Shown in pieces: positions 4,640 through 50,715 of a stretch of 64,000 nucleotides of DNA. The DNA lies in the NCBI RefSeq assembly GCF_029962835.1, contig NC_080574.1:26200001-26264000 (forward strand). The letters run 5' to 3'. Each line of letters begins with the position of its first letter. Within the stretch, counting starts at the first letter, position 1. This DNA is from Magnolia sinica (lineage: Eukaryota > Streptophyta > Magnoliopsida > Magnoliales > Magnoliaceae). Both the position numbers and the translations under genes were made by a program. The notes beneath the pieces are model-generated. The model had not been told where the DNA came from. It saw nothing but the letters and a program-made list of their open reading frames with translations, and searched no databases.

Positions 4640-4883
4640 GTCAGGATTACCCAAAAAAGGGTCCCCACTTCTGAGGTTGCAAGCGCGTGAATACCGTAAA
4701 AATATGGCTGCCACGTACCACATTACTCCTCAGCCATAAAACCCTTACCTCTTATCTTCTTCGCCTCTCTCATTTCTCAGACCTAAACGAGCTGAGAGAA
4801 GCCACACCTTCCTTCCTTGCGCATCTCTTCTAGGGTTAGGGTTTTTATTTTTTCCTTCGGAGAAACCCTAATTCCTTGAAAAA
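4640..4883 (+). promoter_or_regulatory. Probable promoter and 5' UTR of the plastid Hsp70 gene
   Basis: The segment just upstream of the Hsp70 start contains an ACGT core in 'gccacgtacc' (about 4711), a TATA-like 'cataaaaccc' (about 4735) and a pyrimidine-rich leader with 'cttcttcgcctctctc', as is common for highly expressed plant genes. I see no clear run of alternating GAA/TTC heat-shock elements, which fits a constitutive 'cognate' plastid Hsp70 better than a strictly heat-induced one. The transcription start is not determined. Confidence 0.35.
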
Positions 4884-10069
<5,186 letters not shown>

Positions 10070-16159: not shown

Positions 16160-18154
16160 TCAGGATCCACCATTCCTGTAAACGCTGCTGGATCCTTCCA
16201 TGTGTCCGTACCCGATGCGTCCGCTGCTTCCACCTTGGTGGTGTCCAATTGGTACGCAGTATCTTCTGGCTAGCTGACCAATCTGGTACCTTGAATTATC
16301 GCTCCGCACTGTCTGTAAATTCCCTGCTTGCCTTCCCAACCTTGACTGGATACGTTGGTGTTGATGGTGGTTGGGTTGCTGCGCAGTGCTAAGTAGATTT
16401 GGGGAGCTGCGAACCCTACCCAATCCAAACTCTTGGGTCTTGTAGCGGCTAATAGGCTCGGTTGCATCTCCGGTGCTGCTTTTATACATTGTAGCATCAT
16501 TATTATTAGAGTCATGGGAGTAGGTGTCTGGTCCAGTGGACCTAGGCGACCCTGCTGAAGAAGATATGCTGAAGACTGGGTGGCCCACATTGCTAGTTGT
16601 CCTCACGAACCCATTGATAGCGTCTATGTAACGCTGCTCCAGCACATTGGTTTCCACTGTTCTGGAAGGGATGTGGTTCTCGATCACTACTGGATTGGAA
16701 GGGAATAAGAACGCCCGGAGCCTCGGAGCAGCACTGTTCCTTGATAACATGGTATCGTGGCGGTCGTACTCGGTAAGCATGTGCTTGATGTCCTCGTCGC
16801 ATGTGACAGAGACTAGGGCATCAAGGTCTTCCGGTACCAACTGGTACTTGAGGATACCTTCCACGTTGAACAAGCTAGCCAGCTTCTTCATTAGCTCTGG
16901 ACATTCAGGAGGGGGAAAAAGAAAAAGAAAACGAACAGAACTTTTATTTGTTTTGGGTGAGGATTTGAGATTGTGATCTTTGAAATTCATGGATTTCAAA
17001 TCTTCTCTGTTTGATTTTCGCTGAGGGCTCGTTTGGCCGGTCGGATTGGAAGGGATTGGATGGTATTGGAAGGGATAGGAAGTTAAATCTCGGGATTGGC
17101 CGGGCGTGCCAAACAGAGTCGGTGATCTGATCCCAATCCCATGGATCTTAAGGCAATCCACTGACAACACCATCATTACCTTTAAATCCCATCCAATCCA
17201 CCTTAATCTGTTCAAATTTGCCTGGGACGTGTTTGGTTCGAAGGATTGGAAGGGAAGGGAAGGTTTAATCCCGGATTGGCCGGGCATGCCAAACAGACTG
17301 GATATAGCAATCCAGGGATAGAGCAATCCCATGGATCTCAAGACAATCCACTAACAACACCATCATTACCTAGAAATCCATGCCATCCACCTTATTACCA
17401 TTCAATCCCTTCTAATCCCTTACAAAAGTTAGTGAATTTCCCATGAGCCCTGCGACCTGGTCCTGCTCTGGCTTGCCCAGCTGGAAATGGCATGGCCTAG
17501 CCGTTTACAGCATAGGGTGGGCCTAGGTTGGCCCATTTCATGCTATGATCCTGTAGCAGATGTGGATTATGTCCTCAAGCCTTTTGTTTGGATGGTCTGT
17601 CCACAGATAGGTGATCCAGACGGTTGATCAGATGGCCTCACCGGTATAGATCATACTAAAAAATCAGCCCGACTGGGTCCTCGCAATTGATGCAACTTTG
17701 TTTTTTTCCCCTGTCGGTTTAACAAGGGCTAGGATCGCTCAATGGGGTCTCGCTAACCGTGCAGATCATACATCCATGGGCCCCACCTGTTAAAATGGAA
17801 GGCTCAAGTATACCATCCATTATCCTGAGCTGGGAAATGTTCATGACCGTTCAAATTCAAGGAGCGAAATTTCGAATAGATAGATGGGCCACGTGGCATC
17901 TGCGATGTGGCCCACCTTGAGATAAGGCATACACGTGAGAAAGGTGAAAGAGGAGGGAAAAAAGAAGAAAAAAGAAGAGGCTTGCCTGAGAAAGTGACAT
18001 TACGAGGGACAGCCACAACACGGGTCTCGCCACCCACGTACTTGAGCAGACCGTCGGATGGCCTCGGCAGTATCTTCCCGCCGTGGCTGCACAAGAACTT
18101 CACCCTATTCCTCGGCGATGACAGGGCCTCCTCGCTCGCTCCCGCAATCCCCAT
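16160..18154 (-). CDS. PB1 (Phox/Bem1p, octicosapeptide) domain protein, 2 exons, 301 aa
   Basis: Probably a protein-protein interaction adaptor, since PB1 domains pair with other PB1 domains; the partner is unknown. Exon 1 is 18154-17986 and exon 2 is 16896-16160. Exon 1 encodes MGIAGASEEA..., then RVKFLCSHGGKILPRPSDG.LKYVGGETR, the classic plant PB1 opening with the basic Lys. Exon 2 continues ELMKKLASLF...LKYQLVPEDLDALVSVTCDEDIKHMLTEYD, with the acidic D.D.D-like cluster, followed by PRLRAFLFPSN and LEQRYIDAINGFVR. The rest is Ser/Asn/Gln-rich and looks disordered. The intron (17985-16897) starts GC rather than GT: TCAG|GCAAGC, ending TCCAG|A. Splicing there joins ...NVTFS to ELMKK, exactly as the family requires. 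I chose the ATG at 18154 because upstream codons lack an ATG before a stop. I do not assign a paralogue name. Confidence 0.88.
17024..17451. mobile_element. Double MITE (hAT-like) in the PB1 intron
   Basis: Two related units lie head to tail, at about 17024-17223 and 17224-17451. Each begins with a '(C/G)GTGTTTGG'- or 'CTCGTTTGG'-type end and goes on to 'ggattggaaggga', 'cgggattggccggg', 'gtgccaaacaga', then 'aatcccatggatctcaag' and 'caacaccatcattacct'. The outer limits, AGGGCTCGTTTGG and CCCATGAGCCCT, are imperfect inverted ends. No clear TSD. A related element is at 44138-44765. It lies fully inside the intron, so the coding sequence is unaffected. Confidence 0.65.
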
Positions 18155-22437: not shown

Positions 22438-22972
22438 GGAAACGGATTGGCTACTCCCCCTGACACCAGCCAATGGCTGGTGGTCGGTGCCATTTGGGCC
22501 CCACTATGATGTATGTGTTTCATCCATGCCGTCCATCTATTTTTACATATCATTTTACAGTATGAATTCAAAAATAAGGTATATCCAAATCTCAAGTGGA
22601 CCACATTACAGGAAATAGTGTTGAATGAGGGTCGACCATTACAAACATTTTGGGGGCCATAAAAGTTTTGGATCAAGCTGATTTTTTTTTTCTCTTCATC
22701 TGGGCCTGTATGACCTAATCAACAGATTGGATGTCAAATAAACAGTATAGTGGGCCTTAAGAGGATTTTAATGGTGGATATCCAATCATTATTGTTTTTA
22801 TGTGGTGTGGTCGACCTGAGATTTATATTCCTCTCATTCTATAATTAAACCATAAAATGATCTGTAAAAATGGATGAACGGAGTGGGTGAAAAAAATACA
22901 TCATGGTGGGGCCCACAGAGCACTGACCATCAGCCACGGAGCTGGTGGCAGGGGAGTAGCCAATCCGTTTAC
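22438..22972. mobile_element. Foldback MITE (MULE-like) with perfect 9-bp TSD
   Basis: A 535-bp element starts GGAAACGGATTGGCTACTCC; its right end, complemented, starts GTAAACGGATTGGCTACTCC. It is flanked by GACAAGGTG at 22429-22437 and 22973-22981, identical 9-bp copies. The arms pair along most of their length: ends, then 'ggtgc..tgggccccac.atgatgtatgtg', then 'ccgtccat'. A short unpaired centre remains. No coding capacity. The 9-bp TSD and long terminal inverted repeats point to the Mutator superfamily. Confidence 0.85.
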
Positions 22973-24330: not shown

Positions 24331-24819
24331 GGACGCCGTTTGGCTATGATGCTGCCACTAGCCAGGTGGCTAGTGGTTGGTGCTATGTAGGCCCCACCAT
24401 GATGTAAGTGTTTTATCCACGCCGTCCATCCATTTTTAAAGATCATTTTAGGGCTTGATCCCAAAAATAAGGGAGGTATAAAAATCAGTTGGACCACACC
24501 ACCGGAAAACAGTAGTGATTGAATGTCCACCATTAAAAACCTCCTAGGACCCAATCTAATATGTTATTAGACATCCAACCTGTTGATTAGGTCGTACAGA
24601 CCTGGATGAAGGGGACAAAGAAACATCAGCTTAATCCAAAACTTTTGTGGCCCACGAGAAGTTTTTAATGGTGGGCCTTCAATCAACAGTGTGGTCCACT
24701 TGAGATTTGGATCAACCTAATTTTTGGGCTTATTTCATAAAATGATCTGAAAAAAATGGACGGATGGGATGGATGAAACACATACATCATGGAGGGGTCC
24801 ACATAGCCAATACGTTTCC
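24331..24819. mobile_element. Foldback MITE (MULE-like) with perfect 9-bp TSD
   Basis: A 489-bp element begins GGACGCCGTTTGGCTATG; the right end complemented is GGAAACGTATTGGCTATG. The TSD CTTTTGAAA is identical at 24322-24330 and 24820-24828. The arms mirror each other for about 230 bp each ('gccccaccatgatgtaagtg' against 'catacatcatggaggggtcc'; 'attaaaaacctcc' against 'gaagtttttaat'). Only 21 bases separate it from the previous element. Confidence 0.9.
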
Positions 24820-26110: not shown

Positions 26111-26363
26111 TGGAGGGATTTTCTCTTTTGAATGAATGACTCTGTTTCTTCATTTGCCCCCAACCACAGGTTTTCTCCCCGAGATTGGTGAATTGACGAA
26201 AATGACCTTCTCTGTTTAGCAATTACATGGGAGAAATTTACGACTGTAGACCCCACCTTTTATCCATTGAATATTCATGAAGCAATACAAACTTAACCTC
26301 CGAACTTAGACCTCCTCGTACGGACGACAAATTCCAGGACGAAAATATCCCTCCTTTTCGAGG

Positions 26364-26835
26364 AAACTGATTGGGTACTCCCCCTGCCACCCGCCAATGA
26401 TGTATGCTTTTCATCCTTGCCTATCCATATATTTTTCCTGATCATTTTATGGCAGGAGACCAAAAATGAGGTATATCCAAATCTCCAGTGTACCACATCA
26501 CAAGAAACAGTGTTGAATGAGCGTCAACCATTAGAAACTCAGCTGGAGCCCACTGTGATGTTTGTGAGAAATCCTCCCCATCTAAGTTCATTCATAGGGT
26601 CACAGAGACCTGGATGAAGAGGAAAAACAAATTTCATAATGATCCAAAACTTCTGTATCCCCTAAAAGGTTTTCAGTGGTAGACGTTCAATTCCCCACTA
26701 CCTTTTATAGTGTGGTTCACTTGATAGTTAGATCTATCTTATTTTTCGTCTCAACCCTTAATATGAGCTCGCCAAATAGATGGACGGTTTGGATATGACA
26801 AAGACCTCATGATGGGACCCATAAAAGCAACAGGA
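26364..26835. mobile_element. Foldback MITE nested in the left arm of element A
   Basis: Starts GGAAACTGATTGGGTACTCC (26364) and carries the family core. Compared with its mirror copy in the right arm it lacks about 33 bases around 'gggccccaccatgat' at 26397-26399. Its inner end 'gatgggacccataaaagca' is followed by an A run. It pairs with 30365-30867. Confidence 0.75.
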
Positions 26836-27052
26836 AAAAAAAAACAGACAACCGTAGTACGGCGGCAGTGCCGTGGCAGTCTGGCAATTTTTATTTTTAT
26901 TTTTTTACAAGGAGAACATTTTCTCCCTTACATTTTTCTCTAATACATAATTATGTAAATATGTATATATAAGTATATAAAAATATTTTTCTATCTTTTA
27001 ATTCATTTCTTTGTCTACTTATTTAACAAGCAAATCTCCTAGGTTAGAATGA

Positions 27053-27180
27053 TTTTTTTTTTTTTTAAACACACCCCCACACACTCACACTAGTGGAATT
27101 TCACCACTTATGGATACTCAAATACTTGATCGGGTATTGAAACTCCTAAGAGTCTACCACCCGAGCAAGAGTAAGGATCC
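27053..27180 (-). mobile_element. tRNA-derived SINE in the left arm of element A
   Basis: Minus-strand copy with its A-tail seen as the T run at 27053-27066. It is flanked by AGGTTAGAATGA (27041-27052) and AAACTAGAATGA (27181-27192), a worn 12-bp TSD. It mirrors the copy at 29989-30129, so both descend from one insertion. Confidence 0.8.
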
Positions 27181-27340
27181 AAACTAGAATGATTTACTTA
27201 ACGTACCACATATGATCCTGGTGTAGGAGAAGCTAATTTAGCCAACCAACCTAGTTATTTTCCAAGATTTTATCGGGTCGATGGTCGAAAATCCATTTCA
27301 TTCAGTTCGTGGTTAATTTCAATCACTTCGCAATCAAACT

Positions 27341-27959
27341 GGAAATTCAACGGGGCAAACATGAAATTGAGCGGGGCAAACAAGAAATTCAGCGGGGCAA
27401 ACTAGAAATTTAGCGAGGCAAACATGAAATTGAGTGGGGCAAACATGAAATTGAGTGGGGCAAACTAGAAATTATATGAGGCAAACATGAAATTGAGCGG
27501 GGCAAACAAGAAATTTAGCGGGGCAAACTAGAAATTTAGCAGGGCAAACATGAAATTGAGTAGGGCAAACATTAAATTGAGCGGGGCAAACTAGAAATTC
27601 AGCGAGGCAAATTAAGCAGGGCAAACATGAAATTGAGTGGGGCAAACATTAAATTGAGCGGGGCAAACTAGAAATTCAGTGGGGCAAACATGAATTTCAG
27701 TGGGACAAATTAAAAATTCAGCGGGGCAAACATGAAATTGAGCAGGGCAAACTAGAAATTGAGCGGGGCAAACTAGAAATTGAGTGAGGCAAACATGAAA
27801 TTGAGCGGGGCAAACTATAAATTCAGCGAAGCAAACTAGAAATTGAGCGAGGCAAACATGATATTGAGCAGGGCAAACATGAAATTTAGCGGGGCAAACT
27901 AAAAATTCAGTAGGGCAAACTAGAAATTGAGCGGGGCAAACATGAAATTGAGCCGGGCA
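27341..27959 (-). repeat. 21-bp minisatellite, left array of element A (about 29 units)
   Basis: Units such as GCGGGGCAAACATGAAATTGA and GCGGGGCAAACTAGAAATTCA repeat with a constant 21-bp period. On the minus strand the unit reads TCAATTTCATGTTTGCCCCGC. Two main variants (ATGAAATT and TAGAAATT) alternate irregularly, suggesting homogenisation by short blocks. Unlike a CRISPR array there are no unique spacers. Confidence 0.95.
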
Positions 27960-28069
27960 AGTATTTATATAGAAATTGCACAGATAAAAATTCCTAACAC
28001 CAATTCATTCCTAACACCCTAGCCTTTGAAATGAGAATTCTCCTGATCACTTTATAAATGTTAATGTTC

Positions 28070-28340
28070 TAGTCAATCATCACCACTATCATCGTAGGCT
28101 TGTCTCGACTATTTGGCATCAGCTTTATTAATCCTATTTTGCACATACTTCAAATCTAAAGACCTTATCCTTGGTAAGTGAACAAGCTTTCATATCCTTC
28201 TCACCACTTCAATCCAACTTCTTTCACGCCTTCCCCTGTTCTTCTTTCAACCCTATTAAAGTTCCTCTTGGACCATGTCTAGTATCTCATGTTGAACCAA
28301 ATCAATTACTTCTCCATCATTTTATCTCCAATTGAGGCAT
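28070..28340 (-). mobile_element. Fragment of an RTE-type LINE 3' region
   Basis: The stretch 'catcgtaggcttgtctcgac' followed by 'tatttggcatcagctttattaatcct' matches, as I remember it, the 3' part of plant RTE LINEs (and SINEs that borrow it), read on the minus strand. It continues with RTE-like words to about 28340. Truncated. Tentative. Confidence 0.45.
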
Positions 28341-29126
28341 ATAATCCATTTTGATAAAAACTAAAATTGCTATCTTGGATAGGTATTTTTCATATAAATT
28401 TCATAAAATAAATATGAATAGCATGTTACAAATGGGATGCACATATGCATGTGTGCTGGATTCTGTGAAATAAGGAGTCCTATTATGCTCCCTGTATGCC
28501 TGTCCATAATTGTATCTGGGAAAGATAAAATGTGGTAGCTCAATGAATTTTTTTTAACTAATCCTGCTTTATTCAAAAATGGGGTGGTTTCAATAATTTT
28601 ATCATAAAGCTAATGCATAAGTTACTGGAATTCACCAGGGAGATACAGATCTAACTCAAGTGCAACAGCTAAAACTGCGCACTTGAAGTGAATCGGACAC
28701 TAAATACGGAACCCTTTGAAGGTCTACATGGTCTAAATTTGAATTCTAAAATTCACCAACAAGTCCGGTACCAAAATCATTATGAGGTTTAAAATCAAAC
28801 TGCATAAAGAGAAAAGACTTGAAGACTAGTCAGACACAACAACTACAATACAAGAAGATTTTTTAAAATGCAATCTGGAGATTATAAGTCATACATTTGT
28901 GGAAAAATAAAAAAAAACAAAAAAAACTTCAGAGACAAAACAGAAGACAGGTAGGCAAAATGAAATGTTGCCCTATTGAACAAGTCTTGCTAAGCATGCT
29001 GGACGATTTTGACTACAATGGACAAGCCGCATTATAAAAACATTGTTTGCAGAAGTCCCACTTCTTTTGATATAATTCCATGGGGAGAAAATAGAGACTA
29101 AAATATCACCCTTGCTCCAAGGTGTC

Positions 29127-29303
29127 TCATGTGACTAAATCATCAGACTGGTACCTGGAATGCAGGTAATACAAGCTGAAGCCTCTTGGTAGACCTAGAC
29201 CTTTGCAGTCCCTACATCTAAAAGTGTATTGAACACGATTTTGAAGTGAATACCAGTATGGTAACACCAGAGATGCCATCACTGACTCTGGAAGTGAATA
29301 TTT
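29127..29303 (-). pseudogene. Possible captured gene fragment (58-codon open segment)
   Basis: On the minus strand, a stretch starting after an acceptor-like CTGCTAAG at 29303 is open for 58 codons and ends at a stop at 29127. It reads KYSLPESVMASLVLPYWYSL, then a part with RCRDCKG, then GFSLYYLHSRYQSDDLVT. It has normal-looking composition with Cys and Trp. I do not recognise the family. Mutator elements often carry host gene pieces, so a captured exon is plausible, but chance is not excluded. Confidence 0.3.
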
Positions 29304-29556
29304 CTTAGCAGGTCAATAATACGATATTATGATTTCAATTGATAGCAAGCCCCTAAACCCTAGATAAGCGGAACCCCAATGGTGTTTCTTCCCATAATTT
29401 CAGTAAATTTAATGAATTCTCTTGATGGCTTTGGTGGGCTAAATATACCACATTCATCTTTACACCAATTACAAATCAGACAAATTGGAGAAGTGTAGAA
29501 ACAATTACAACTCTATCATGATTTTGGATTGGATGCCCCAATTAAAACCATTTCTA

Positions 29557-29832
29557 GTTTGCCCCGCTCAATTTCATGTTTGTCCCGCTCAATTTCTTGT
29601 TTGCTCAGGTGAATTTCTAGTTTGCCCCGCTCAATTTCATGTTTACCCCACTCAATTTCATGTTTACCCCGCTCAATTTCATGTTTGCCACGGTCAATTT
29701 TTAGTTTGCCTCGCTCAATTTCATGTTTACCCCACTCAATTTCTAATTTGCCCCACTCAATTTCATGTTTGCCTCGCTCAATTTCTAGTTTGCCCCGCTC
29801 AATTTTATGTTTGCCCCACTAAATTTTCAGTT
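29557..29832 (+). repeat. 21-bp minisatellite, right array of element A (about 13 units)
   Basis: Units of the type TTTGCCCCGCTCAATTTCATG, complementary to the left array, period 21 bp. Fewer units than the left arm (about 13 against 29), so the two arrays have changed length independently. The in-frame heptapeptide reading of this array (CPAQFHV-like) is a by-product of the 21-bp period, not a gene. Confidence 0.95.
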
Positions 29833-29988
29833 TGATCGCGAAGTGATTCAAATTGACCACAAACTGAATGAAATGAATTTTCGACCATCGACCCAATGAA
29901 ATCTTGAAAAATTAATAGGTTAGTTGGCTAAATTAGCTTCTCCTACCCCAAAATCATATGTGGTGCGTTAAGTAAATCATTCTAGTTT

Positions 29989-30129
29989 GGATCTTTACTC
30001 ATGCTCGAGTAGTAGACTCTTAAGAGTTTCAACACCCAGTCAAGCGTTCGAGTATCCATAGGTGGTGAAATTCTACTAGTGTGAGTGTGTGGGGGTGTGT
30101 GTGCGTGTGTAAAAGAAGAAAAAAAAAAT
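29989..30129 (+). mobile_element. tRNA-derived SINE in the right arm of element A
   Basis: A 141-bp SINE with an A-box-like 'tgctcgagtagtag', a B-box-like 'gcgttcgagtatcc', a GT-rich segment and an A-tail. It has a perfect 12-bp TSD TCATTCTAGTTT (29977-29988 and 30130-30141). Element B's right arm (35890-35903, 'actcattccgattt') shows the empty site. Confidence 0.85.
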
Positions 30130-30364
30130 TCATTCTAGTTTAAGAGATATGCTTGTTAAATAAATAGACAAAGAAATAAATTAAAAGATAGAAAAATATT
30201 TTTATATACTTATATATACGTATTTACATAATTATGTATTAGAGAAAAATGTAAGGGAGAAAATGTTCTCCTTGTTTACAAAAAAATAAAAAAAATAAAA
30301 TAAAATAAATCTGCCAAATTGCCTGCGGCGAAGATCTTTTTTTTTTTTTTTTTTTTTTGCTTTT

Positions 30365-30867
30365 GTGGGTCCCATCATGAGGTCTTTGTTATATCCAAAC
30401 CGTCCATCTATTTGGCAAGCTCATATTAAGGCCTGAGACGAAAAATAAGATAGATCTAACTATCAAGTGGACCACACTGTAAAAGGCAGTGGGGAATTGA
30501 ATGTCTACCATTGAAAACCTTTTAGGGGTTATAGAAGTTTTGGATCATTATGAAATTTGTTTTTCCTCTTCATCCAGGTCTTTGTGACCCTATAAATGAA
30601 CTTAGATGGGGAGGATTTCTCACAAACATCACAGTGGGCTCCAGCTGAGTTTCTAATGGTTGATGCTCATTCAACATGTTTCCTGTAATGTGGTACACCT
30701 GAGATTTGGATATACCTCATTTTTGGTCTCATACCATAAAATGATCTGGAAAAATATATGGACGGCATGGATGAAAAGCATACATCATGGTGGGGCCCAC
30801 AGACCACCGGCGATCCGCCATTGGCGGGTGGCAGGGCAGTAGCCAATCCGTTTCCGTGCAAAGGAGG
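30365..30867. mobile_element. Foldback MITE nested in the right arm of element A
   Basis: Mirror copy of 26364-26835, and more complete. It keeps 'catcatggtggggcccacag' and ends 'gccaatccgtttcc' at about 30858, the complement of GGAAACGGATTGGC. It closely matches the MITE in element B at about 36150-36625 ('atccaaaccgtccat', 'gacgaaaaat.agacagatct'). Confidence 0.8.
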
Positions 30868-31009
30868 GGTATTTTCGTCCTGGAATTTGTCGTCCGTGCG
30901 AGGAGGTCTAAGTGCGTATGTTAAGTTTGTATTGCGTCAGGAATATCCACTGGATAAAAGGTAGAGTCCACAGTCGTAAATTTCTCATAATATGGGAAGT
31001 TGATCAGGT

Positions 31010-31506
31010 GTTTTACGGGAAACTCTTTAGTGGGTGTTACCCTTACCATGTGAGGCCCACCTTGATCTATGTGTTGTATATCCACGCCGTCCATCTGTTT
31101 TATCAGCTCATTTTAGGACGTTATACCAAAAATTAAACAGATTCAAATCACCAACGGATCATACCACTGGAAAAGGTGGTGAATGAGTCATGACCATTAA
31201 AAACTTTTTATAGGGCACAAAAGCTTTGATTCAAGATGATATTTTTATTTCACCTTCATACACGTATGTTTGACCTTATCAACCGGTTGGATGAAAAATA
31301 AACATTAATGATATGCTTACGGTGGGCCTTCTGAATTTTTTAATGGTAAGAATTCAATCACCACTGTTTCCCATGGTGTGGTCCATATGATATTTGAATC
31401 TGCTTAATTTTTGGGCCCACATCCAAAAAAAATCTGGAAAAATAGATGGACGGCATGGATATTGAAAAATCATCAAGATGGCCCCACGGTAGTGGTGACA
31501 CCTTTT
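31010..31506. mobile_element. Foldback MITE (MULE-like), GGTGTTACCC end type
   Basis: Begins close to the right TSD of element A with 'tcaggtgttttacgggaaac' and 'agtgggtgttacccttacca', and ends with 'gatggccccacggtagtggt' and 'gacaccttttcc'. Inner core words are those of the family. The same end type is seen at 23727-24309. Limits approximate. Confidence 0.6.
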
Positions 31507-34282: not shown

Positions 34283-34438
34283 TTTCAAGCGGAGAGATTT
34301 CCTACTGTACGACCCATTTATGGGCCATTCCCAAAAATAAGCCCACTTATTTTGAGCTCCCAAGAATAAGCCCCAGTTGTATGGCCTCATTTCTTTGGTA
34401 AAAAATGCCTCTGCTTTTTCAGCTTTTTGATATTTGAA

Positions 34439-34455
34439 AGTAGGGGGGGGGGGCT
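34439..34455. repeat. Poly-G run in the left arm of element B
   Basis: About 13 G in a row at 34443-34452 and neighbours ('gtaggggggg...ctccc'). Unusual in this AT-rich DNA and prone to slippage and sequencing error. Confidence 0.7.
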
Positions 34456-34861
34456 CCCTATGGCTACGGATTATGACCATAGCCATAACCGTAGCCATAA
34501 TTCACCGATTGCCAAGGGGTGGACAGTGAGTCGGGGTCAACCAGGTCAGTGGGACAGTGACTCGGGGTTGACCGGGTTCAAACCCGGTCGACCCCAACTC
34601 ATTGTCCAACCTGTGTACTTAGTTTGTTTTTTTTTTTTTTTTTGTACAAGGAGAACTTTTTCTCCCTTACATTTTTCTACATTGCATATGTATATAAATA
34701 TGTATATATAAGCATATAAATTTTTTTTCCTTTTTATTCATTTATATCTTTATTCATTTAATAAACATATCTCTTAAACCAGAATGAGTTACTTTAGCTA
34801 ACCAACCTACTTATTTTCCAAGATTCCATCAGGTCGATGGTCGAAAATCCATTTCATTCAC

Positions 34862-35770
34862 TTCGCAGTCAATTTCAATAAGTTTGCGGTGAATTTCATT
34901 CATTTCATTTCACAGTCAATTCCATGCATTTCACGGTTAATTCCCTTCACTTTTACGGTCAATTCGCTTCACTTCACGGTCAATTTCATGCATTTCACGG
35001 TTAATTTACTTCACTTCACAGTCAATTCCAACGATTCTCCTTCACTTCACAGTCAATTCCATGCATTTCACGGTCAATTTCCTTTACTTCACAGTCAATT
35101 CAATGCACTTCACTGTCAATTCCATGTATTTCACGGTCAATTCCCATCACTTCATGGTCAATTCCATGCACTTTACGGTCGATTCCCTTCACTTCATGGT
35201 CATTTCCACACATTTCACGGTCATTTCGCTTCACTTCACGGTCATTTGCATGCATTTCATAGTCATTTTCGCCGATTCCCTTTAGATTCACGGTCATTTC
35301 GATGCACTTCACGGTTAATTCCCTTCACTTCATGGTCATTTCCATGCATTTTACGGTCATTTCACTTCACTTCACGGTCATTTCCAGCATTTCACGATCA
35401 TTTCCAGTGATTCCGTTTAGATTCACGATCATTTCGATGCACTTCATGGTTATTTCTATGCATTTCATAGTCAATTCCGGCGATTCCGTTTAGATTCATG
35501 GTCATTTCCATGCATTTCACGATCAATTCGCTTCGCTTCACGGTCATTTCCACGCATTTGACAGTCATTTCGCTTCGCTTCACAGTCATTTCCATGCATT
35601 TCACGATCATTCCTAATTATTCCGTTTAGATTTACAGTCATTTCGATGCACTTCACAATTAAATCCATTCACTTCACAGTTATTTCCTTGCATTTCATGG
35701 TCAATTCACTTCACTTCACGATCATTTCCATGTATTTCACGGTCATTTTTCGCGATTCCGTTTTGATTTA
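34862..35770 (+). repeat. 21-bp minisatellite of element B (about 40 units)
   Basis: Units like TCAATTCCATGCATTTCACGG and TCATTTCGCTTCACTTCACGG recur every 21 bp, with occasional longer units carrying 'gattc.gtttagattcac'. The first 11 bases, TCAATTTCATG, are the same as in the unit of element A; the last 10 differ (CATTTCACGG against TTTGCCCCGC). Only one orientation is present, so B lacks the inverted array pair of A. Long open frames across it are a by-product of the 21-bp (7-codon) period. Confidence 0.93.
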
Positions 35771-36149
35771 CCACGAAGTAAATAAAATGGATTTTCGACC
35801 ATCAACCTGATGGAATCTTGGAAAGTAAGTAATTTGGTTAGCTAAAGTAGCATCTCTTACTCCAAAATCCTATATGGCACATCAAGTAACTCATTCCGAT
35901 TTAAGAGATATGTTTATTAATTGAATAAAGAAATATATGAATAAAAAGAGAGAAAAAAAAAATTATATGCTTATATGTGCATATTTATAAAAATATGTAT
36001 TAGAAAAAAAATGTAGGAAAGAAAAAGATATCCTTGCAAAAAATATTTTTTAAAAAAACAGAAAAAAAAAATACTCAGGTGGGACAGCGAGTCGGGGTCG
36101 ACCGGCCGGATCAGGCTGTTTTGTTTTTGTTTTTTTTTTTTAAATTGTT

Positions 36150-36625
36150 GTAATCCCCATCGCTTTATGTGAGTTTCATTATGATGTATGTGTTATATCC
36201 AAACCGTCCATTTATTTGGCGAACTCGTATTAAGGCTTGAGACGAAAAATTAGACAGATCTAGCTATCAAGTGGACCACACTGTACAAGGCAGTGGAGGA
36301 TTGAACGTCTACCATTGAAACCCTTTTATGGGTCACAGAAGTTTTATATCAATACGAAATTTGTTTTTCCTCTTCATCCAGGTCTTTGTTACCTTATGAA
36401 TAAATTGGATGGAAAATATATGTTATGGTGGGCCTTACGAAAATTTTAACAGTGAAAATCAAGTTTCCCGCTGCTAATTGTGGTGTGGTCCAGTTGATTT
36501 TTGGATATGATTTTTTTTTCCGATAATGCTCTAAAATGATCTCGAAATATGGATGAACGGTGTGGATATAATAAATACATCATTGTGGGGCCCATGTCAA
36601 GGAGCGTCAGCGCTCGTCTTCGCAC
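36150..36625. mobile_element. Foldback MITE nested in the right arm of element B
   Basis: Core words 'tatgatgtatgtgttatatc', 'caaaccgtccatttatttgg' and 'gtggaccacactgtac'. Nearest relative in the window is the MITE in element A's arms. This shared nested MITE shows A and B descend from an element that already carried it. Confidence 0.75.
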
Positions 36626-36789
36626 ACCAGCCAATCGTCTTCCGGAAGGAAGGAATGACGGGGTATTTTGGTCAGTTGAAAAGTCGTCCGTACACAGGGG
36701 AGTATTCTTGGAAGCTTAAAAAGAAGTGGGCTTAAAATGTCTGGTGGGCCATAAAAGGGTCGTACAGTAGGAAATTTCTCTTTTAACAG

Positions 36790-39391: not shown

Positions 39392-39895
39392 GGTTTGGCT
39401 AGTGACCCCAACAGCATCAAGTTAGCTGATGTCAAAGATCTATGGGCCCCACCATGATGTATGTGTTTTATCGATGTCGTGCATCCATTTTTTCAGCTCA
39501 TTTTCGGGCATGAGCCCAAAAATCAGTTAGATTCAAATTTCATGTGGACCACACCACAGGAAACAGTGGGGATTGAATGGTTACTGTTGAAAAGTTTTTG
39601 GGGGCCACAGAAGTTGTGGATCAAGCTGATATTTGTGTTTTTCCTTCATCCACGTCGGTGTGATCTTATCATAACAGTGGGTTCTAAGAAGTTTTTAAGG
39701 GTGGATATTCAATCTACACTGTTTTCCTGTGGTGAACCTCACCTGAGATTTGGATCTGCATTATTTTTAGGCTCATGCCCTAAAATGAGCTGTAAAAATG
39801 GATAGAGGGCATCAATAAAACACATACATCATGGTAGGGCCCACAGAGCTTTGACACCAGCTGGCTGGCTGGTGCTGTGGTCACTAGCCAAACCA
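39392..39895. mobile_element. Foldback MITE (MULE-like), GGTTTGGCTAG end type
   Basis: A 504-bp element whose ends are GGTTTGGCTAGTGACC and, complemented, TGGTTTGGCTAGTGACC. A probable 9-bp TSD, AGGGGACAC (39383-39391) and CGTGGACAC (39896-39904), matches at 7 of 9. This is one of the best-preserved copies: 'atgggccccaccatgatgta', 'gtggaccacaccacaggaaa' and the complementary right arm are clear. Central region unpaired. Confidence 0.85.
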
Positions 39896-50224: not shown

Positions 50225-50715
50225 GATTCGGTGGTGACCCCTCCATTACCGGTGCTGTGGGCCCCACAATGGCGTATTTGATTTATCCATACCGGACATC
50301 CATTTTGCCAGCTCATTTTAGGGTGTCATCCCAAAAATGAAAAAGATACTAATCTCATATGGATCCCACCACAGTAAACAGTGGTAATTAAATACTGGCC
50401 ATTAAAAACTTCTTGAGGTCCACAGAAGTATTGGATATAGCTGATATTTGTGTTTTCCCTTCATAAAGGTCTGTGTGACCTAGTCAATAGGTTGGATGGC
50501 AAATGAACATTACGATTGGCCCTAGGAAGTTTTTAACGGTGAGCATTCAATCACCACTATTTCACGTGGTATGGCCCACCTGAAATTTATATCTTCTTCA
50601 TTTTTTAGATTATGCCATAAAATGATATCCTAAAATGGATGGACAGAATAGATAAAACATATACATCATGGTGGGGCCCACAGCACCCACCATCATTGAG
50701 ACATGGGTACTGGAG
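50225..50715. mobile_element. Foldback MITE (MULE-like)
   Basis: Left 'ggattcggtggtgacc' and 'gtgctgtgggccccac'; right 'catcatggtggggcccacag' and 'cacccaccatcattgagac'. Arms pair over most of their length ('ccagctcattttagggtg' against 'cataaaatgatatcc'). No TSD determined. Confidence 0.7.

Follow-up and report, generated by a model that had tools for sequence, protein, structure and literature searches.

The question raised by a 64,000-nucleotide stretch of the Magnolia sinica genome (contig NC_080574.1, positions 26,200,001 to 26,264,000; hereafter the window, in whose coordinates all positions are given) is how one segment of it, at 26231-30986, came to be built as a mirror image of itself. 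This segment, which we term E1, forms an inverted repeat: its ends match, its modules are mirrored, and two 21-bp tandem arrays, inverted relative to each other, flank a 1.6-kb central loop. E1 very probably belongs, as an old and non-autonomous copy, to a family of foldback DNA transposons, most likely of Mutator type (a Mutator-like element, MULE), with arms built from modules and passengers exchanged between these arms.

The E1 family transposes, with 9-bp target-site duplications (TSDs). At E1 itself the flanks ATTACATGG (26222-26230) and ATAATATGG (30987-30995) agree at seven of nine positions, alternative lengths of 5, 8, 10 and 11 bp giving 0, 3, 3 and 4 matches, and only about 0.2% of 200,000 pairs of 9-mers drawn at random from the window match at seven positions or more. 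A degenerate 23-bp end consensus, derived from the ends of E1 and of a second element in the window (E2, described below) themselves, scored 20/23 or better at four places in the window only, i.e. at both ends of each element; the next-best score in the window was 16 and the highest in five Markov-simulated windows was 18. Across the genome (1,838,573,281 bases in 127 contigs) the 23-bp end pattern, allowing up to two mismatches, had 1,782 matches (897 forward and 885 reverse), and the same pattern read backwards as a control had none on either strand. One hundred exact ends, listed from contigs C1-C3 only, were then selected without regard to their flanks. Among neighbours within 40 kb, 20 pairs faced each other, three stood back-to-back and five lay on the same strand. 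The 9-bp flanks of the 20 facing pairs matched at 9/9 in eight cases, 8/9 in five, 7/9 in two and at four or fewer positions in five; one of these last (L073/L074) displays by eye an exact 10-bp duplication, bringing the facing pairs with a duplication to 16 of 20. Among the 8/9 cases one has a poly-T flank, and one of the 7/9 cases belongs to a 696-bp pair and may be due to chance. Among mispaired flanks, by comparison, one of 380 reached seven matches and none eight or above, a difference that we regard as decisive for transposition.

A second sample was drawn through the left arm of E1, which had at least 46 matches in the genome (40 of 9,896 candidates scored); the best 20 of 38 other long matches were fetched. 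An inverted terminus facing the first was found in 15 of these 20 loci, with TSDs of 9/9 in seven pairs and 8/9 in three (and 8/9 in L024 after a one-base shift); the ten pairs with an 8/9 or 9/9 duplication measure 2.9 to 7.8 kb. The match between facing termini extends over 101-128 bp at 14 paired loci and over 49 bp at the fifteenth, L025; terminal inverted repeats (TIRs) longer than 100 bp are a feature of MULEs, and the GAGA..AATT terminus presumably resembles the ends of maize Mu. The closest relatives of E1 among the matches listed were 86-88% identical over the queried arm. A preliminary description of this DNA had proposed a transposon with a probable 9-bp TSD, to be given up if no other locus shared both ends; many such loci exist, and the duplication is borne out at E1, where no other length tested does as well, and across the family: 15 of 20 exact-end pairs have it at 7/9 or better, and 10 of 15 arm-selected pairs at 8/9 or 9/9.

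The same description had E1 as an inverted repeat with the same parts in each arm in mirror order, and this stands. Positions 26231-27614 align with the complement of 30986-29555 at 85% identity over 1,439 columns (E-value 0.0), and the remainder of the left arm (27615-27960) consists of more 21-bp units. From the outside inward, each arm contains a terminus, a passenger resembling a miniature inverted-repeat transposable element (MITE), module M1, a site for a short interspersed element (SINE), module M2 and a 21-bp array. In the left arm, on the forward strand except for the SINE, these parts are the L-type terminus (the first 127 bp, 26231-26357), the MITE-like passenger (26389-26823), M1 (26897-27055), a SINE-like insertion on the reverse strand bordered by copies of about AACTAGAATGA (27067-27185), M2 (27195-27331) and an array of 30.1 copies (27335-27960). 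Beyond the central loop (27961-29549) follow, on the reverse strand except for the SINE, an array of 13.6 copies inverted relative to the left one (29550-29834), M2 (29838-29974), a SINE-like insertion on the forward strand with site and flanking duplication identical to those of the left arm (29984-30100), M1 (30127-30289), a nearly full-length MITE-like passenger (30366-30788) and the 127-bp right terminus (30860-30986). Long inverted arms that make up much of the element, tandem repeats inside them, and dispersed copies that have both ends in common and are flanked by TSDs are the features by which we class E1 and its family as foldback elements.

The history of the SINE can be read across the family, since some arms carry the insertion while in others the site is vacant, and the flanking duplication is present as expected wherever the two sides survive. 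That the insertion at 27067-27185 is a SINE, and its strand, are suggested by an A-rich tail and by the flanks; kinship with a tRNA can only be supposed, since scans of the window against Rfam (at the gathering threshold) and for tRNAs returned no matches. A relative of the left insertion lies at 242-368. SINE states were read by eye in 16 elements with both arms, of which 14 were scored, the junction not being found in L010_R and L012_R: three carry it in both arms (E1, L009 and L018), six in the left arm only, five in neither and none in the right arm only, leaving 11 of 14 right arms SINE-free. The MITE was essentially full length in the left arm of all 20 fetched loci, and in the right arm of the 15 paired loci it was truncated in 11, not detected in three and nearly full in one; because the left arm of E1 served as query for these loci, left-type arms carrying a complete MITE are over-represented, and left and right here denote the orientation of the match. 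Mirrored passengers, earlier put forward as a mark of the family, are therefore uncommon among the members sampled, the SINE being one-armed or absent in 11 of 14 and the right MITE truncated or not detected in 14 of 15. The MITE is also a high-copy family in the window, with five self-complementary relatives of about 430-530 bp outside E1 (22440-22970, 24382-24807, 31033-31502, 39392-39894 and 50251-50687) and partial ones in addition.

Arms were typed by the terminus columns that distinguish ten L from ten R reference arms. Neither of these sets included an arm of E1 or L027, and L009, L010 and L018 contributed arms to both. The right arm of E1 (E1_R) carries the L state at 10 and the R state at one of the 11 diagnostic terminus columns, as does L027_R, and E1_R is also L at the MITE and M2 columns. 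In a tree of 36 arms (E2 left out) the ten R arms formed one branch (91/98) with E1_R placed among the L arms, and constraining E1_R into that branch gave a p-AU of 0.036 (approximately unbiased test). With moderate confidence, then, E1 appears from these comparisons to be an L/L element. Typed by script, the 20 pairs of the exact-end sample comprised 10 L/R, seven R/R, three unclear (two of which look R/R by eye) and no L/L. In L009 and L018 alike, the right arm combines an R-type terminus with the SINE, suggesting exchange within the arm. The duplication around E1 has survived, which would speak against an origin of E1 in a simple crossover of two insertions.

Spans between facing exact ends ranged from 0.7 to 17.6 kb in 17 of the 20 pairs; the three wider pairs (22.4 kb, 9/9; 33.4 kb, with the 10-bp duplication; and 38.7 kb, 2/9) are known from their ends only. 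In four copies of 10.5-11.1 kb, read over about 10 kb each, the M1 modules number 3, 5, 3 and 7, occur in both orientations and are accompanied by several 21-bp arrays. The longer blocks shared by L029, L030 and L031 are 88-97% identical, compared with the 86-88% of E1 and the closest relatives listed, so some members probably spread later than E1. We put forward, tentatively, that the 21-bp minisatellites might serve as exchange points at which arm units, be they L, R or of another type and together with any SINE or MITE in them, are swapped, inverted and chained into non-coding plant MULEs of at least 10 kb that still transpose. A 131-residue frame in one of the long copies (L031:1005-1397) shares by eye a GIKPS-PFQSF-PNTS-like stretch with an open reading frame (ORF) of the window at 16160-17350 on the reverse strand, and is possibly captured or repeat-derived sequence.

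Several observations count against the interpretation given so far, some concerning transposition and superfamily and others the arms. Five of the 20 arm-selected loci have no partner end in the fetched stretch, L010, L016, L021 and L025 have no convincing TSD, and L024 requires its one-base shift. The superfamily is assigned from the length of the TSDs and the structure of the ends. Among the 150 of 1,104 PF10551 candidates that were scored there was no transposase partner, neither of two MULE transposase loci that were read has ends of the family, and the 30 listed PF10551 matches on C1-C3 are all more than 50 kb away from the 100 ends listed, a weak result given that the ends total 1,782. 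No transposase was seen in the four long members either, where ORFs of at least 130 amino acids look repeat- or arm-derived by eye, the 131-residue frame excepted. The imperfect duplication of E1 (7/9) and the modest similarity of its arms (about 85-92%) would also suit a segmental inverted duplication without transposition, an explanation to which we give almost no weight and which we rejected on the TSD evidence, the end pattern having its 1,782 matches in the genome and 16 of 20 facing pairs carrying target duplications (at least 7/9, with the one of 10 bp). It is improbable, to a lesser degree, that the family belongs to another superfamily producing duplications of similar length, e.g. 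one of P type like Galileo, which would alter the superfamily and nothing else. Foldback structure does occur with different transposases, Galileo having a P-element transposase (PMC3169594, PMC4079207), and neither the long members nor the two MULE loci yielded a transposase for the family. On the other side, the duplication of about 9 bp by which MULEs are recognized was 9 bp long in 15 of 20 exact-end pairs and 10 of 15 arm-selected pairs, and such duplications were termed consistent with MULE transposases in PMC3169594.

As for the arms, the difference between L and R is almost confined to the terminus (the 11 columns, as against one in the MITE, none in M1 and one in M2), the right arms of L011, L012 and L024 fit neither type and form a branch of their own (100/100), and the arm-swap test, whose groups were named once a first tree had been seen, reaches just p 0.036. 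Moreover, E1_L and E1_R do not group as sisters; the source of the mirror may thus have been another L arm and not copying inside E1. This placement, with both arms of E1 among the L arms, would also be expected if L/L symmetry were ancestral, the arms of E1 having merely diverged and R-type arms having arisen later. We consider such an ancestry rather unlikely, as the exact-end sample contained 10 L/R and seven R/R elements, three unclear ones and no L/L, and 11 of 14 right arms are SINE-free; both samples are biased, one being limited to exact ends on C1-C3 and the other to loci found via the left arm of E1, and only the step of arm exchange is at stake. Because relatives of both SINE and MITE occur elsewhere in the window, the mirrored copies could in principle stem from independent insertions into each arm, but the two SINEs of E1 occupy one shared site with an identical flanking duplication and the MITE has the same position in E1L, E1R and the right arm of E2 (E2R), which makes this extremely unlikely.

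The reading we prefer, a MULE-type foldback family with exchanged arms, may be pictured as follows. A transposase supplied in trans, presumably of MULE type, would recognize the GAGAAATTT(A)CGACTGT ends, and cut and paste movement would leave the 9-bp duplications seen beside them. The arms are assembled from the common modules (terminus, MITE, M1, SINE site, M2 and 21-bp array), the SINE and the MITE each presumably having entered one arm and then spread by arm copying or exchange, for which gene conversion, template switching and recombination through homologous arms or arrays are candidate routes. Two L-type arms would make E1 a mirror image, other members being L/R or R/R and four members of 10-11 kb holding additional arm modules in both orientations.

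Elements of this kind have precedents. In animals, foldback elements of Mutator type whose inverted arms contain tandem repeats have been published (PMC3169594, PMC5225508). Among plant foldback elements, FARE is assigned to the MULEs (cited in PMC4486113 and PMC3169594) and MuTAnT is a foldback MULE (PMC4486113); multi-TIR MULEs also occur in plants (PMC3310237). The Mutator/Foldback element Tm1 of Meloidogyne resembles the E1 family in its 9-bp TSDs, composite inverted arms and mostly non-autonomous copies (PMC3169594); its arms contain a shorter repeat, a motif of about 14 bp in varying numbers, its host is a nematode, and one of its known copies encodes a Phantom-type transposase (PMC3169594). 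One Tm1 element, bearing the same motif at either end and proposed to have arisen by crossover, has no TSD (PMC3169594), whereas E1, with like arms on both sides, retains its 7/9 duplication. Muta1 of Aedes aegypti, named a type 2 Foldback element, is likewise a MULE with long inverted ends, subterminal tandem repeats and TSDs of 8-9 bp, but it has 145-bp TIRs and 12-bp repeats, is autonomous and transposes in yeast (PMC5225508). Arabidopsis FARE, likened here through its cited description, shares with E1 the long palindromic ends and the MULE class (PMC3169594, PMC4486113). The multi-long-TIR MULEs of tomato and other plants share additional arm copies inside TSD-bearing elements; in them whole TIRs are duplicated, mostly in tandem (PMC3310237), whereas the E1 family multiplies interior modules in both orientations around 21-bp arrays. 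Tetris of Drosophila virilis, assigned to Mutator by its TSDs, is a foldback element with tandem repeats in its arms, 8-10 bp TSDs and no autonomous copy found, and differs in its repeats of about 220 bp and its fly host (PMC4079207).

The earlier suggestion that E1 represents no described family is thus not supported as regards its kind, which was already published with Tm1 and Muta1; the exact set of parts with mirrored passengers was not found described in the literature searched. In the M. sinica genome paper (PMC10999834) the main text uses none of the words foldback, MULE and Mutator, and no such magnoliid foldback family was among the matches listed in open-licence literature. The E1 family therefore looks like an apparently new family of an already known kind. 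It adds a large foldback family to the magnoliids, in which the SINE and the MITE, as shared insertion markers, make arm exchange in inverted-repeat transposons traceable copy by copy, and the longer copies offer a natural case of foldback elements breeding minisatellites and palindromes.

The second element, E2 (34292-36780; 2,489 bp), is more diverged and has ends of the same kind as E1; its flanks (34283-34291 and 36781-36789) agree at six of nine positions, which is weak alone, lengths of 10 and 11 bp giving five. Its middle is spanned by 21-bp arrays in a single direction (34851-35771, forward strand) with no central loop, the MITE is missing from its left arm, together with much of that arm's outer part, and the SINE site is empty in both arms. 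Across M1 and part of M2, 16 four-arm sites group the arms by element, one groups E1L with E2R and none groups left with left, so the arms of one element share a history, through exchange or common origin. An earlier whole-arm count (44 by element, three left-left and four left-right) was dropped because it included non-homologous columns of the E2 left arm. A short mirrored module of E2, CCGGTCGACCCC with its surroundings, does not occur in E1; the motif is also found in the arrays of L029 and L031 and, reverse-complemented, in L030. Descent between the array units of E1 and E2 was considered and set aside, the 13/21 match in opposite orientation (shuffle P 0.02) being too weak.

Of 26 fetched loci, 24 belonging to the family, none matched the central loop of E1, and the ORFs of at least 130 amino acids that reach into this loop overlap the 21-bp arrays. 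Part of the loop, 28045-28330, may resemble the 3' end of a plant RTE-type long interspersed element in antisense. The arrays stay open as reading frames, which their period, divisible by three, permits, and they appear as frames of a 7-residue repeat at 27612-28004 (reverse strand), 29443-29835 and 34802-35410 (both forward); a peptide from the right array of E1 had no homologue at an E-value of 1e-3 or better among 117 candidates. For one protein of the host, the best match that bears a name comes from Asimina, at 53% identity. Elsewhere in the window, at 4872-10069, lie exons that read by eye as a plastid HSP70 gene.

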